From: Flavobacteriaceae bacterium
GTDB lineage: Bacteria; Bacteroidota; Bacteroidia; Flavobacteriales; Flavobacteriaceae
Reading direction: 5' to 3'
Assembly (NCBI GenBank): GCA_029861705.1
Contig: JAOTYW010000005.1
Location: 1-33,579 of the forward strand
Length of the DNA: 33,579 nt
Shown here: positions 5,927 through 13,211 of the stretch, one piece after another
How the letters are laid out: each line of letters opens with the position of its first letter
Position numbering within the stretch: the first letter of the stretch is position 1
The notes under the pieces: generated by a model
What the model saw: the letters and a program-made list of their open reading frames with translations, nothing else
Databases searched by the model: none
Told to the model about the DNA's origin: nothing
Made by a program: the position numbers and the translations under genes

Positions 5927-7477
5927 ATGTATTTAAAAAACAGCACATTAGCACTGCTGTCAGCGCTTCTGTATATATCTGTCGCCTCCGGCCAGGAAGG
6001 GGCTGCTGTACAAATAGAAACTTCGTTGACAGAGGTAGGAATTACGGAGACCAAAGAGAAAGAAGATGTATTTCAAGACTTGCCCCTGGCTTCTAAATGG
6101 GACAGTTTATGGTTAGTTGAAGTGGCTTCAAGGCAGGATATGTTCAGGGAAATGCATGATGCCGTTATAACTTCTTCAGATACGGAGGAGGAATTTATGC
6201 AAATAGATACGGAGGTGTTAAAAGCAAGATTGGCCGCCCTGGATTCGAAAACCCCATTTAACATTTCCTATAACCCTTCTCTGGAAAGCGTAATCAACTC
6301 CTTTTTAAAAAATAAAAAACAGCTCATCGAACGGATGCTAACTGTGAGCGAGTTCTATTTTCCCCTCTTCGAACAAGAATTAGACGCACACGACCTGCCC
6401 CTGGAAATTAAATACCTTGCCATTGTAGAATCTGCTTTAAATCCACGTGCCCGTTCGCGTGTCGGTGCGAAAGGACTTTGGCAATTTATGTATGGGACGG
6501 GTAAAATGTATGATCTGGATGTCTCAAGCTATGTCGATGAACGAAATGACCCTGTTGCTTCTACTAAGGCAGCATGTCTTTATCTAAAAAAACTACATGA
6601 AATTTTTGGCGACTGGGATTTAGCACTGGCTGCGTATAACTCCGGGCCGGGAAATGTGAATAAAGCCATACGCCGTTCAGGAGGATATGAAAATTACTGG
6701 AATATCCGCAGAAATTTACCCAGGGAAACAGCTGGTTATCTCCCGGCATTTCTTGCAACAATGTATCTGTTTGAATATGCGGATGAACATGGAATAGTAA
6801 AAAAAGATGCTGGTCGTTTTTACCAGGAAACAGATACGGTATTGGTAAAAAACATGATCACCTTTGATCAGATCACCAACTTTGTTCCCGTCACCATGGA
6901 CGATCTTAAGCTATTGAACCCATCCTATAAATTAAATATTATTCCCAGGGTAGAGGGGAAGAAGTATTATCTGCGCTTACCGGTTTCAGCCTTGGGCACT
7001 TTTGTGGCCAATGAGAAGGCAATATATGATCTCGCTAAGGAGCAACTTGCCAATAATGAAACACCATTACCTGAAATGGTTAAGGCCCAACAGAAAATCA
7101 GATATCGGGTTCGGAGCGGCGACTATCTTGGTAAGATCGCAGAGCGTTATCGGGTAGGTGTAAGCGACATCAAGCGTTGGAACGGATTGAGGAGCAATAT
7201 GCTGAGAGTAGGCCAAAGACTCACAATATACCCCAGGAATTCCGTGGCCTATGCGACGCCTAAAAAATCGAAACCTTCAACACAAAACACCCAGACGACT
7301 AGTGGATCCAAGGTCCATACGGTTCGAAAAGGGGATTCACTATGGACAATAGCCAGAAAATATCCGGGAGTGACTATCGAAAAATTAAAAATTTGGAACG
7401 GTATTAGTGGTACACGATTAATGCCAGGCACAAAACTAAAACTATGCGATTGCTCCATTTCAGCTTCAGGCCAATGA
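5927..7477 (+). CDS. membrane-bound lytic murein transglycosylase D-like protein with two C-terminal LysM repeats
   Basis: SLT motif AIVESALNPRARSRVGAKGLWQFM, LALAAYNSGPGNVNKAI; LysM-like IRYRVRSGDYLGKIAERYRVGVSDIKRWNGL and HTVRKGDSLWTIARKYPGVTIEKLKIWNGI. Confidence 0.95.
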   Translation: MYLKNSTLALLSALLYISVASGQEGAAVQIETSLTEVGITETKEKEDVFQDLPLASKWDSLWLVEVASRQDMFREMHDAVITSSDTEEEFMQIDTEVLKARLAALDSKTPFNISYNPSLESVINSFLKNKKQLIERMLTVSEFYFPLFEQELDAHDLPLEIKYLAIVESALNPRARSRVGAKGLWQFMYGTGKMYDLDVSSYVDERNDPVASTKAACLYLKKLHEIFGDWDLALAAYNSGPGNVNKAIRRSGGYENYWNIRRNLPRETAGYLPAFLATMYLFEYADEHGIVKKDAGRFYQETDTVLVKNMITFDQITNFVPVTMDDLKLLNPSYKLNIIPRVEGKKYYLRLPVSALGTFVANEKAIYDLAKEQLANNETPLPEMVKAQQKIRYRVRSGDYLGKIAERYRVGVSDIKRWNGLRSNMLRVGQRLTIYPRNSVAYATPKKSKPSTQNTQTTSGSKVHTVRKGDSLWTIARKYPGVTIEKLKIWNGISGTRLMPGTKLKLCDCSISASGQ

Positions 7478-8454
7478 AACGCTCACTGATTTTTTCCATT
7501 TGTCTTTTTCTCGCCTTTTCTTGTTTAGACAAGAAGAAAGTTAATTATAAACCCGCATCCATTGGGGCCATCAATACCCTGGCAGTCATCATGGAAACAC
7601 GCCTATGGGAAGGCACAGTAGGAGATAAGATCCGCGAAAAGTTTGCTGCCCCAAGCCTGGGTCTGACCTGGGAAGAACCTATCTTTTCTATAGATCATAT
7701 GCCCAAAAGTGTTTTCACAGGGCAAACGAGGCACCGCAGATCGGTATTATATGTTAGCCTGGACAGTCTTGATATTGCCCAGATCCAGACAGATACCTAT
7801 GCTACGCCTCAGCGCATTGGCGTAATAAAAGGGGAAACAGAAGAACAGCTAATTGCTAATATTGAAGCTGGAGCAGACAGACTCATTGCTTCTTACAAGA
7901 AACTTGAATTGGAAGAGACCCAAAAGAGATTTTTACGGTCCTTAAATAAAGAAAAAGCCCTTGAAGAGGAATTTGGCATCCGTTTACGCATACCATCCAT
8001 ATACACGGTCGGAAAACAAGAATCCAATTTTATTTGGATCGACAGGCAAATACCCAGGGGCACCATGAATATTCTGGCCTATACCATACCTGGAGGAAGC
8101 TTGAGTAATGATTCTACCTTAGTAAGCGATATTGTGAAAATGCGCGATTCTATAGGTATGAAATACATTCCCGGCCCTGATATCCCTAATAAGACAACTT
8201 ACATGATTACCGAAAAGGCCTTTGCACCCTATGTCTTTATTACGGCCCTGAAAGATAAAAAAGCTATCGAGGTCAGGGGCATATGGGAAGTGAAGAATTA
8301 TCCCATGGCCGGCCCTTTTCAAACCTATATTATTGATGACCCGGAACGGGATCGCAAATTGGTAATAGAAGGCTTCACTTTTGCACCGGCTACCAACAAA
8401 CGCGACTATATGTTTGAGTTGGAAGCCATCCTTAAGACTGTAGAGTTCCTCTAA
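7474..8454 (+). CDS. DUF4837-like putative lipoprotein (start trimmed to ATG 7474)
   Basis: MKRSLIFSICLFLAFSCLDKKK signal/lipobox; ATGA overlap with the preceding stop; overall pattern resembles Bacteroidota DUF4837 family. Confidence 0.75.
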   Translation: MKRSLIFSICLFLAFSCLDKKKVNYKPASIGAINTLAVIMETRLWEGTVGDKIREKFAAPSLGLTWEEPIFSIDHMPKSVFTGQTRHRRSVLYVSLDSLDIAQIQTDTYATPQRIGVIKGETEEQLIANIEAGADRLIASYKKLELEETQKRFLRSLNKEKALEEEFGIRLRIPSIYTVGKQESNFIWIDRQIPRGTMNILAYTIPGGSLSNDSTLVSDIVKMRDSIGMKYIPGPDIPNKTTYMITEKAFAPYVFITALKDKKAIEVRGIWEVKNYPMAGPFQTYIIDDPERDRKLVIEGFTFAPATNKRDYMFELEAILKTVEFL

Positions 8455-8466
8455 GGAATAAAAAAA

Positions 8467-8486
8467 CCCCTTTCTCCTGAAAGGGG
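8467..8486 (-). terminator. Rho-independent terminator, probably bidirectional
   Basis: CCCCTTTC-TCCT-GAAAGGGG between convergent genes; minus strand continues TTTTTTTATT. Confidence 0.85.
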
Positions 8487-8513
8487 TTATTCTATATTGA
8501 AGGATTTTAGTTT

Positions 8514-8684
8514 TTAGTCAAAAACAAATCCGGTTGCGATTCGATATGAAAAAGCGTACATAACTACTAGTAACATAGCAAAGCAAAACCAGAAAAAGAA
8601 TTTAAAATATTTGGTCAATAGTAAATGCCCAAGGTTTTTAAAAGCTTCAAGATAGATTTCTTTAATGAGTAATAATTTCTGCAT
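8514..8684 (-). CDS. 56-aa small single-TM membrane protein (paralog A; possibly DUF6747-type)
   Basis: Not in ORF track (below length cutoff). Translation MQKLLLIKEIYLEAFKNLGHLLLTKYFKFFFWFCFAMLLVVMYAFSYRIATGFVFD*; 34/56 identical to paralog B by ungapped count. Confidence 0.88.
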   Translation of the reverse strand: MQKLLLIKEIYLEAFKNLGHLLLTKYFKFFFWFCFAMLLVVMYAFSYRIATGFVFD

Positions 8685-8752
8685 GGTAATAAAATTTAGG
8701 ATTTATGACACTCCAAAATTGGGGTAGAATTATAAGAATTAATAATTATTTG

Positions 8753-8782
8753 GTTGAAATGTGATAAATAATAGTTATAAGT
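8753..8782. promoter_or_regulatory. degenerate 21-bp-period GTT direct repeat upstream of small ORF A
   Basis: GTTGAAATG-N12-GTTATAAGT; second GTT exactly 21 bp after the first. Confidence 0.35.
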
Positions 8783-8855
8783 AAAGAGGGAATCTATACA
8801 CCTTATAAATGTGTATTTTAACCTGATGAAGGGATAATCGAAACGGTTATAAACG

Positions 8856-8885
8856 AGAAAAGCGCCCGATAAAAGGCGCTTTTCT
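8856..8885 (-). terminator. hairpin terminator-like structure downstream of small ORF B
   Basis: AGAAAAGCGCC-CGATAAAA-GGCGCTTTTCT, 11-bp perfect stem. Confidence 0.75.
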
Positions 8886-8904
8886 GTCTTGAGGTTGTTT
8901 GGTT

Positions 8905-9075
8905 TTAATCGAATGCAAATCCGGTTGCTACTCTAAATAAGAATGCATACAATACAATGATGAAACTTATAAAGCAGAACCAGGTAAATACTCTAAAGTA
9001 ATTTTTTACAATAGTATGCCCCAGGTTCCTAAAGGCTTCCTGGTAAATTTCTTTGATAAGTAATAAGTAGTTCAT
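8905..9075 (-). CDS. 56-aa small single-TM membrane protein (paralog B; possibly DUF6747-type)
   Basis: Not in ORF track. Translation MNYLLLIKEIYQEAFRNLGHTIVKNYFRVFTWFCFISFIIVLYAFLFRVATGFAFD*; same length as paralog A with shared LLLIKEIY, NLGH, WFCF and ATGF.FD. Confidence 0.9.
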   Translation of the reverse strand: MNYLLLIKEIYQEAFRNLGHTIVKNYFRVFTWFCFISFIIVLYAFLFRVATGFAFD

Positions 9076-9157
9076 GGTCTATGTTCGTTTAATTAATGCT
9101 TTGGGTATTTATATAACTCTTTCCTGAAAGGGTTGCGTATATGCTTTATATGGGTTT

Positions 9158-9187
9158 GTTGTGAAATTTGTTTGCGATGTTGTGAAA
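9158..9187. promoter_or_regulatory. 21-bp-period direct repeat upstream of small ORF B
   Basis: GTTGTGAAA-N12-GTTGTGAAA; perfect 9-bp repeat, starts 21 bp apart. Confidence 0.6.
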
Positions 9188-9224: not shown

Positions 9225-12065
9225 TTACATATCAACTATTATGAATTCAGATCTTCGGTTCATTTGGTGCTTGGCACTGGAGCAACGTACACTTCCATCG
9301 CATTCATTGAGCAACCTTTCTTCACCATAGCCGATAGCGCTTTGAATGCGTTTTGGATCAATACCCTTCGATATTAGGTACTTCCGTGTAGATTTTGCTC
9401 TTCGGTCAGATAGATAACGGTTATAAGCCCGTTTACCTCTGGAATCTGTATGCGATTCGATTGCAATGACCAGCGTTGGATATTCATTCATTACGGTAAC
9501 AAGCTTATCCAATTCCTCAGCCGCATCACTTCGGATATATGATTTATCGAAATCAAAGAAGATCATTTCCAATTTGAGCTTGCGAATACCGTCTTCAACG
9601 CTGATCATATCTTCAAGTCGTCGCATAACCAAATCAGTTTCTACTAGCATGTTGTCTTTTGTAGACACCTCTACTTGCTCATCAAAGTAATCTCCTTTTG
9701 TCACTCGTACGGTGTATTTAGTATTGCTGTCGAGGTCTTCAAACAGGAAGCTACCGTCATCACCAGTCACCATTTCCTTGATCTTACGTCCATTTTCATC
9801 TAATAGCTCTACTAGTGCCTCAGGGAGGATCTCTCCAGTGACTACTTCGGTAACGATACCTGCAATCGCATTTTCATTAGGCTCTTCCGGCAAAATCTTT
9901 TTAAAAGAATAGATGTCATCACTTCCTTTACCTCCTTTTCGGTTGGAAGCAAAATAACCGTGTTGTGTTTCTTCATTAACGATATAAGAGAAATCGTCTT
10001 TATTGCTATTAATTGGCTTGCCGAGGTTACGCACTTCCAAAAATCCTTCGTCATCATTGAATGCTACTTCATATACATCCAAACCTCCAAGACCTACATG
10101 TCCATCGGAAGAGAAATAAAGTTTCTTATCGTTGATAAACGGGAACATCTCTCTTCGTTCAGTATTGATCTCAGGCCCTAGATTTCGGGGCTCAGAAAAA
10201 GAATTATCTCCCTGGATATCTACGACAAAAATGTCTGATTCTCCTAAAGAACCAGGCCTGTCCGACACAAAATACATTTGCTTACCATCAGGCGTTAATA
10301 CGGGATGCCCGGTAGACCAGTCATCACTGTTGAATGGCACTTCCACGGCATCAGTCCATTCGCCATCTACTTTTTTAGACATATAGATTTTAAGGTGATT
10401 AACACCGGACTTATCACGCTTTAATTTCTTCCCGTAGTTGTTACGGGTGAAATACATCGTTTCATTATCAGGCGTAAAGGCAACGGAAGCCTCATGGTAT
10501 TTTGTGTTGACCTTTTTAGACAGCTTAACTGCTTGCTTTACATCTTCTGATTCTTCATTGATTTTGGCCGCATACAGGTCTAAAAAAGGTTCATTATTCC
10601 ATTTATACCTCCTGGTAACAAAAAAGGAGGAATCCGCAGCAGACGCAAAGACAAGTTCATTGTCATTGTAATACATCGGTCCGAAATCGGAATATTTGGA
10701 ATTAATTGCGAGGTTCTTAACCGTAAACTGGTCTTCGGCGCTTAGAATATTGTCCAGGATCACCTCTCTGGGCGTTGCGTTGTCATCATTTGCTAATACG
10801 GCTTCATCTTCTTTCTTCAACTTTTTATTGTACAGCCTCATCAACCGCTTTGCGCGAGCATACTTGCCCGTTCCTTTTAGGGAATGTGCATATTTAAAGA
10901 TGTTTTCTGCAGACATTTCGCCCTTGTGCTTGCTGTAGAGCTGATCGTACCAGTAATACGCCCGCTCCATATTTGTGTTGAAATAGTGCGCATCTCCCGC
11001 TTTCTCTATGATCTCGAATGTATGGTTGTTCTTATTCCTGTTGAGGACTTGCTCGTACAGTTCAGCTGCTTCTGCATACCACATCTTGTTGAAATACAAA
11101 TCAGCTTTCTCCAAAAGCTTAGTTTTAGTTGGATCTTTCTGTGTGTTAAAAGTGGGCTTAAGCAGAATAGTACGTTGTGATGCTTTGTTTTGGTTGGCTC
11201 TTTGGGCCTTTGGCTTAGCAATTTTGGCAGTCTTGGGCACTTCTAGTACCCAGACTTTATTTTTTCTGTCTTTTTGAGTGTAGTTTTTGAGGAATGCGAG
11301 GGTTGTGTTTGAAGATTCAAATTGATCGAGATATACATATGAATTACCAGATTCAGGATGTACTAGGGTACTTGCTGCATATCCCTGATCTCGCAGCTTG
11401 AATTTTAAACGATCTGCATTCTTTCTTTCTCCGAAAACTCCGGCAATGATATAATATCCCGAGGTATACGATACAAGTGCTGCATCGCTTCTTGATGCGA
11501 TTCCGAGCGACTTTATACTTTTCTTGAATTCAATTGAAGAAAGAGCTTTTGCAGATGGATTGATCGTATTTTTAATAGGTGCAACCGGATTAACCATCGT
11601 TTTTCCATTATAGACATGAAGGATCCAAACTTTTTCTTCGAACTTGCCATTTAATTGGGAAGATGCTGAGGAAATAGCCTCGACCCCGGATACATGATAG
11701 CCGAGAGAAACATAATTTAAGTTCTTTTCTGGATGAAATAATACCTGAGCTTTCAGATTCTTAGCTTTCATTTGATCTGAAAGTCTGGAAGCATTTTCTG
11801 CATTGCCAAAAACACCAGAGATAATGTAATAACCATTAAAGGCGTCACTAAATCCATGCTGACTCCGCGTAGCAAATCCTTTTTCCTTTGCCAGGAGGAC
11901 AAAGGCCTTATGTGAAGCTGAAGAGGGCAAACTGTTTTCCTCCAAATTGACAGACGTCAAATTTGAAACAGATGCCTCAGCATAGCTTGCGTGCAATGCA
12001 AAGACCAGGAAGATTATTCCTGCTATTACATTCGCCTGCTGTATTAAGCTACGGGAGAAATTCAT
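9225..12065 (-). CDS. OmpA-family outer-membrane protein with N-terminal SPOR-like repeats, TPR-like region, PD40 beta-propeller, CarboxypepD_reg-like domain and OmpA C-terminus
   Basis: Two GYYII.GVFG... SPOR-like segments; PD40-like TPDGKQMYFVSDRPGSLGESDIFVVDI; carboxypeptidase-regulatory-like ILPEALVELLDENGRKIKEMVTGDDGSFLFEDL; OmpA FFDFDKSYIRSDAAEELDKLV...IESHTDSRGKRAYNRYLSDRRAKSTRKYLISKGID. Confidence 0.93.
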   Translation of the reverse strand: MNFSRSLIQQANVIAGIIFLVFALHASYAEASVSNLTSVNLEENSLPSSASHKAFVLLAKEKGFATRSQHGFSDAFNGYYIISGVFGNAENASRLSDQMKAKNLKAQVLFHPEKNLNYVSLGYHVSGVEAISSASSQLNGKFEEKVWILHVYNGKTMVNPVAPIKNTINPSAKALSSIEFKKSIKSLGIASRSDAALVSYTSGYYIIAGVFGERKNADRLKFKLRDQGYAASTLVHPESGNSYVYLDQFESSNTTLAFLKNYTQKDRKNKVWVLEVPKTAKIAKPKAQRANQNKASQRTILLKPTFNTQKDPTKTKLLEKADLYFNKMWYAEAAELYEQVLNRNKNNHTFEIIEKAGDAHYFNTNMERAYYWYDQLYSKHKGEMSAENIFKYAHSLKGTGKYARAKRLMRLYNKKLKKEDEAVLANDDNATPREVILDNILSAEDQFTVKNLAINSKYSDFGPMYYNDNELVFASAADSSFFVTRRYKWNNEPFLDLYAAKINEESEDVKQAVKLSKKVNTKYHEASVAFTPDNETMYFTRNNYGKKLKRDKSGVNHLKIYMSKKVDGEWTDAVEVPFNSDDWSTGHPVLTPDGKQMYFVSDRPGSLGESDIFVVDIQGDNSFSEPRNLGPEINTERREMFPFINDKKLYFSSDGHVGLGGLDVYEVAFNDDEGFLEVRNLGKPINSNKDDFSYIVNEETQHGYFASNRKGGKGSDDIYSFKKILPEEPNENAIAGIVTEVVTGEILPEALVELLDENGRKIKEMVTGDDGSFLFEDLDSNTKYTVRVTKGDYFDEQVEVSTKDNMLVETDLVMRRLEDMISVEDGIRKLKLEMIFFDFDKSYIRSDAAEELDKLVTVMNEYPTLVIAIESHTDSRGKRAYNRYLSDRRAKSTRKYLISKGIDPKRIQSAIGYGEERLLNECDGSVRCSSAKHQMNRRSEFIIVDM

Positions 12066-12276: not shown

Positions 12277-12800
12277 CTATTCAGTGATGTAGATCCATTC
12301 AGACCTCTCAGATCCTTCCGTTTCTGAGAAACTCAAAACGTAGAAATATGCGCCTTCAATCAATTCTTCGCGACCAAACTTGGTCAATTTTGGCTGTCTT
12401 TTACCAGTCCAGCTATTGTCATAGGCTTCCATTTCATAGACCAAAGTACCCTAACGGTCAAAGACCTGAAGAAAATTGTTGGGATAATTAGTAGTACAAG
12501 CGGCATAAAGCTCACACTTCTTTCCGTTAGCACGCTGAGAAAAATCGTTGAACACTACCAGGCAATCATTTTCAACCCATTTGATGGCCCTTTGATATTT
12601 GCAAGTTGATTTTTCGATGATTTTGTTTCATTAGTCTTAGAACTTCTTAAAAATCATTTAGCAGGATTAGCATTGATAATAAAGCTAAAACTCAATGTTT
12701 CACTTTCCTTTGCCCTGAGCATTGGTAATTTCCAAAGTCCTTCGTCTCATTATAATCACCCAGATCCTGAGTTTAGGCCTCCAGGAAACTTTCCACAGCA
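12277..12800 (-). pseudogene. decayed T9SS type-B (gliding motility-associated) C-terminal-domain protein remnant
   Basis: Minus-strand reading gives VVFNDFSQRANGKKCELYAACTTNYPNNFLQVFDR*GTLVYEMEAYDNSWTGKRQPKLTKFGREELIEGAYFYVLSFSETEGSERSEWIYITE*; in-frame TAG at 12451-12453 where the family has RWG. Upstream fragments DLGDYNETKDFGN and LPMLRAKESETLSFSFIINANPAK lie in different frames. The 12800 boundary is approximate. Confidence 0.8.
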
Positions 12801-12840
12801 AGTAGAATGTACACGAAAATACTAATTGGTATAAAATAAA

Positions 12841-12886: not shown

Positions 12887-13072
12887 CTACAAGTCGTTGT
12901 TCTCTTCTATTTTATCTTCTTCTTTGGATGCGTCTTTGAATTCTTTGATTCCGCTGCCCAATCCACGCATCAGTTCCGGTATTTTTTTACCGCCAAAAAG
13001 AAGTAAAATCACTACAACGACCAATACGATTTGCCAGGGGCCAAACGCAAGTATAATGTTCGATAAGCTCAT
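12887..13072 (-). CDS. tatA: Sec-independent translocase TatA/E-type protein (start trimmed from 13117 to ATG 13072)
   Basis: [52 protein letters not shown]: TatA TM helix, FGxxKxPEL hinge and amphipathic helix. Confidence 0.93.
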
Positions 13073-13211
13073 AATCTTGATTTTAGTTACACAAATGTAC
13101 AAAAAAGAAAGACCCAACTATAGAGACACCTAAATATCAAGCTGAATTCCTTTATCTATAATTTAACGTTGGAAAATACAATAAAATATAAATGGTCTTA
13201 TCTTTGTTTTT

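Follow-up and report, generated by a model that had tools for sequence, protein, structure and literature searches.

The two 56-aa proteins encoded at 8905–9075 (copy A, the upstream member of the pair) and 8514–8684 (copy B, the downstream member), both on the minus strand, are genuine, constrained protein-coding genes of the DUF6747 family (PF20532); positions refer to the window, the whole stretch of 33,579 nucleotides of a Flavobacteriaceae genome that was analyzed. An earlier note, drawn up from the letters of the DNA, had reported both open reading frames; their exact translations are recovered, and a recount of the ungapped alignment agrees with the 34/56 identical residues given there (116/171 identical positions at the DNA level). 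The family name, which the note had tentatively suggested, proves right: a Pfam profile search identifies PF20532 with 93 bits for copy A and 90 bits for copy B (E ~1e-25 to 1e-26, the curated cutoff being 27 bits), and the matches, which are well beyond chance, span model positions 1–55 of 55 in each copy. Both proteins are full-length members of the family itself, for which Pfam gives no function. Comparison with the nearest relatives (two nearest genomes) yields dN/dS of 0.06–0.12 for copy A and 0.05–0.09 for copy B, pooled pN/pS for moderately diverged pairs is 0.13 and 0.26, respectively, and synonymous changes greatly outnumber non-synonymous ones in both copies. Such strong purifying selection (dN/dS 0.05–0.12 for the two copies taken together) bears out the claim that these are real genes, and the low dN/dS and pN/pS values establish that A and B are protein-coding and constrained.

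A search of NCBIfam with the two copies returns no match, PHROGs gives no useful match, and a sequence search of PDB gives nothing meaningful. A Pfam scan of 23 family members down to E 1 detects only DUF6747, plus one stray weak side match, to Cyt_b-c1_8 (E 0.13, in one of the 23 members), which was rejected. The literature was searched for DUF6747 and PF20532, and no paper naming the family was found in the collection searched.

Homologs, which the note had proposed to look for, are present in many other genomes: DUF6747 is represented in 79 of the 400 surveyed Flavobacteriaceae genomes (49 of 238 genera), with 1–6 copies in each. Among the named genera that carry it are Eudoraea, Muriicola, Maribacter, Arenibacter, Flagellimonas/Allomuricauda, Croceitalea and Poritiphilus. 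Of 296 genomes drawn from across the class, the window's own was the sole one with a DUF6747 match, and 14 control genomes yielded none; the family was detected here only in Flavobacteriaceae. The window's genome has three copies, namely the A/B pair and one that is truncated where contig C178 begins.

The family copies sort into classes with recurring neighborhoods. In a tree built on 56 columns, which does not settle the placement of the window's copy B, class C is a firm clade and 58 A copies group together with support, the resolution being lower for B. The description of A and B as duplicated tandem genes holds insofar as they are a paralogous pair; the pair is not a local duplication but is old and clade-wide, with both copies present in 51 of the 77 OmpA-linked loci discussed below. 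The single copies found at the A/B site in Flagellimonas carry B-type upstream elements and may be B orthologs. Class C proteins start with MGTL and end in F, without D; their gene follows an M48 peptidase gene and precedes one that we take to be gpmI, and upstream there are genes for VanY and for what is likely a type-B CTD protein (34.4 bits, compared to the cutoff of 35). Class D adjoins genes that presumably encode DNA polymerase IV and DnaE, as judged from their resemblance to these, and class E is located near what we assume, on the same grounds, to be a coaX-like gene. Five of the seven class C loci (L034, L039, L044, L046 and L047) share a small convergent gene that lies ~90–110 nt after the class C gene; the product of the single case scanned (L047:7602-7991) contains ankyrin repeats and probably a signal peptide.

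Analysis of the genomic context of the A/B pair reveals that, in each of the 77 loci scored (the window and 76 others, from named genomes), the gene immediately upstream, on the same strand, encodes an OmpA/PD40/SPOR protein (in the window at 9225–12065, minus strand, identified with Pfam and NCBIfam). The next gene downstream, in 75 of these loci, is the convergent gene of DUF4837 (7444–8454, plus strand, Pfam), which is used as a site marker only; PorP/SprF is encoded nearby in 11 loci, and 10 have a relative of the type-B CTD gene in the vicinity. With respect to the suggested co-occurrence with OmpA and T9SS genes, the OmpA link is real; the T9SS link is indirect and runs via the genes for PorP and the type-B CTD protein that some loci contain. 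The upstream neighbor resembles PorE and CHU_0125, scoring 350 and 432 bits against the respective NCBIfam models, below both cutoffs (600 and 620), and differs from these proteins by an added SPOR region; the likeness is the neighbor's only. The C-terminal domain of PorE, a lipoprotein of the T9SS, binds peptidoglycan (PMC7192894). Among the DUF6747-negative relatives, 17 of 20 have an M23 peptidase gene within ~0.5 kb after the DUF4837 gene, with TatA between the two where this was read out, and in the window the OmpA+DUF6747 block is located between DUF4837 and TatA/M23. A TatA/B/E-family gene is found at 12887–13117 on the minus strand, beside an M23 peptidase gene, and belongs to the gene order seen after DUF4837 in the DUF6747-negative relatives. 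Because 17 of the 20 negative relatives do not have the block at this site, either a gain by the carriers' ancestor or a loss elsewhere would fit the data.

One relative, G003, in which the only DUF6747 copy belongs to class C, has the OmpA gene at the site and neither A nor B, and a search of this site for an A/B remnant recognized none. The OmpA gene therefore does not require A/B, and, given this exception, the pair is not always present where its linked OmpA gene is, as would be expected of a T9SS component. These observations bear on the possibility that A and B are dedicated helpers of the OmpA/PD40/SPOR protein that would couple the inner membrane to the peptidoglycan-binding anchor of a T9SS type-B CTD/PorP cassette. 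The constant position of the OmpA gene, the PorP and type-B CTD genes near some of the loci and the VanY, M48 and likely type-B CTD genes upstream of class C are all compatible with such a role, which we nevertheless consider unlikely, given the situation in G003, the location of classes D and E elsewhere and the fact that the type-B CTD gene of the window is a pseudogene, yet A and B are still under selection. The latter gene (12280–12832, minus strand) is a decayed type-B-CTD-like gene with in-frame stops that extends over three reading frames. Its counterpart in L053, a close relative, has an open frame of 263 aa, and this intact version scores only 22.7 bits against the sorting-domain model (cutoff 35).

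The two genes are preceded by different conserved elements. Upstream of copy A, a motif search evaluated against shuffles identifies a bipartite direct repeat, TTCACAACA-N12-TTCACAACAAA (9155–9186, minus strand), a likely regulator site. A relaxed form of this repeat is present in 35 of 59 class A upstream regions, compared to 0.0 in shuffles; exact repeats occur at most twice per genome, in 7/7 carriers of the first genome set and, in a further set, in 7/10 carriers and 0/13 non-carriers, and all 20 exact matches are 32 nt long although the spacing was left free over 7 values. At 33 nt before copy B, alignment of upstream regions shows a TTTG box (8714–8717, minus strand) within a TAnnTTTG-like -7 element; in the copy B class, this box is mostly found 27–36 nt before the start, and a TTT(C/T)(A/G)TC element is present in 22/50 upstream regions (5.0 in shuffles). 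Class C has an invariant upstream 18-mer (seven aligned cases), which is detected in 5/6 carriers, the copy of the window's genome being cut by the contig start, and in a further set in 5/12 carriers and 0/20 non-carriers. If an element came with the gene, non-carriers would be expected to lack it, and such a lack alone is no proof of regulation; a shared regulator is more likely for the A repeat because this repeat has extra sites away from DUF6747. The sites of LytTR-type response regulators are 9-bp direct repeats with a 12-bp separation, an arrangement that the repeat before copy A shares, but the half-site TTCACAACA is not tied here to any regulator. The distinct elements upstream of A and B support the notion that the two genes are separately transcribed, with transcription start sites inferred from sequence only. 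Hairpins had been reported downstream of each copy and are seen by RNA folding, and only that of copy B passes the terminator pattern scan: the hairpin after copy B (8465–8488, minus strand) is intrinsic terminator-like and has the shape of a terminator for DUF4837, the convergent gene, as well, whereas the one after copy A (8851–8889, minus strand), with a strong stem and a weaker T-tract, is a probable terminator that the scan did not call.

The 32-nt TTCACAACA repeat is also found in other contexts. At several sites (G000:C167:7828-7859, within L138:5599-5860 on the minus strand, and in L140, L142, L174, L175, L178 and L179), it is followed by ~200 nt in which no gene is obvious, and then by a terminator-like hairpin, an organization that suggests a putative undescribed sRNA, usually convergent with a DUF3078-like gene; three of these loci had no Rfam match at the gathering score. 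In L139:5369-5743, L173, L176 and L177, the repeat is located upstream of a gene for a 124–132-aa protein (no Pfam match in the single case scanned), which is followed by a TPR-like gene. In L172, it lies ~85 nt before what we take to be a PAS-domain-sensor-like gene, after a presumably coaD-like gene. The occurrence of the repeat before the putative sRNA and, in one genome, before the PAS-domain-like gene, along with the several DUF6747 copies in unrelated loci with different upstream elements, is compatible with a stress-induced membrane peptide that acts on the bilayer or on signaling (e.g., as a small protein that regulates a sensor kinase or a protease) and has no relation to its neighbors. 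We regard this as possible but doubtful: the strictly conserved side chains suggest specific contacts rather than bilayer effects, although a signaling partner would still be compatible with them. A more elaborate scheme, to which we assign a low probability, is a clade-specific envelope-control circuit in which one regulator recognizing the 32-nt TTCACAACA repeat would drive a DUF6747 microprotein, the putative sRNA and the 124-aa protein, other DUF6747 versions would respond to other signals, and the accessory subunit of a single inner-membrane machine would thereby be swapped to suit the conditions.

Each copy contains one hydrophobic segment by the Kyte-Doolittle scale, in agreement with the single TM helix predicted previously; the best 19-residue means in the two proteins are 2.47 (residues 29–47) and 2.07 (residues 27–45). 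An AlphaFold2 model consists of one helix, residues 3–51, with a mean pLDDT of 83. The mean net charge is +3.2 over residues 1–28 and ~+0.2 at the C-terminal end. Because the N-terminal residues are positively charged, the positive-inside rule suggests an N-in, C-out topology: the basic N-terminal half of the long helix is predicted to be cytoplasmic or to lie at the membrane surface, the C-terminal half would span the inner membrane, and a short aromatic periplasmic tail, around the invariant Arg48 and Gly52, would end the protein. M1, Y11, F15, A44, R48 and G52 are invariant in both family alignments. With respect to the conserved tail pointed out in the note, R-x-x-(T/N/H)-G-(F/Y)-x-F is kept in the alignments; the final D, however, is missing in a deep subclass, so that the data do not support a role for RxATGFxFD as an exact string. 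Type I toxin-like hydrophobic peptides, or the product of a mobile element, are generally similar in size, in the single TM segment and in tandem and multi-copy occurrence. Such readings are disfavored and appear very improbable for DUF6747, given its fixed synteny and single-clade distribution, the lack of a match in 72,556 plasmid and 50,697 phage records, the lack of a PADLOC match, and the lack of an Rfam match near the locus at the gathering score (a permissive scan gives two sub-threshold hits).

The most economical reading is that DUF6747 proteins are accessory microproteins of an inner-membrane complex; we infer the subunit role, and the partner is a guess from the neighborhood. Specifically, A and B may be near-equivalent accessory (regulatory) microproteins that would bind one common inner-membrane partner, with the version chosen by the cell through different promoters. 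This is the explanation that we favor, tentatively and at less than even odds. The conserved side chains, together with the low dN/dS, are indicative of specific contacts, and the separate upstream elements suggest a condition-dependent choice of version. Since the OmpA/PD40/SPOR gene accompanies the A/B locus, at times joined by genes for PorP/SprF and the type-B CTD protein, the partner may be part of the envelope machinery or of that for T9SS surface anchoring. Accessory microproteins of membrane complexes are known, of the CydX, KdpF and AcrZ type. DUF6747 is similar to these in the length of ~50 aa, the conserved specific residues and the single membrane-spanning helix, which is present by prediction, but shows no visible sequence relation to them (Pfam to E 1, 23 members). 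Several observations count against this accessory-subunit reading: the OmpA linkage may reflect mere common descent from one rearrangement, other classes are located beside unrelated genes (DNA polymerase IV-like, coaX-like), and G003 keeps OmpA without A/B.

The family has already been catalogued; the account given here of its paralog classes, fixed loci and upstream elements comes from the data. What is added is the recurring synteny, the absence of the block from non-carriers and the upstream elements specific to each class. DUF6747 is an example of the kind of small membrane protein that readily escapes notice. The presence of several strongly conserved paralogs per genome, in fixed places and with upstream elements that differ, in cultured genera (Maribacter, Arenibacter, Flagellimonas, Muriicola and Eudoraea) makes it a tractable case, and the promoter repeat, together with its other targets, provides a concrete handle on regulation.
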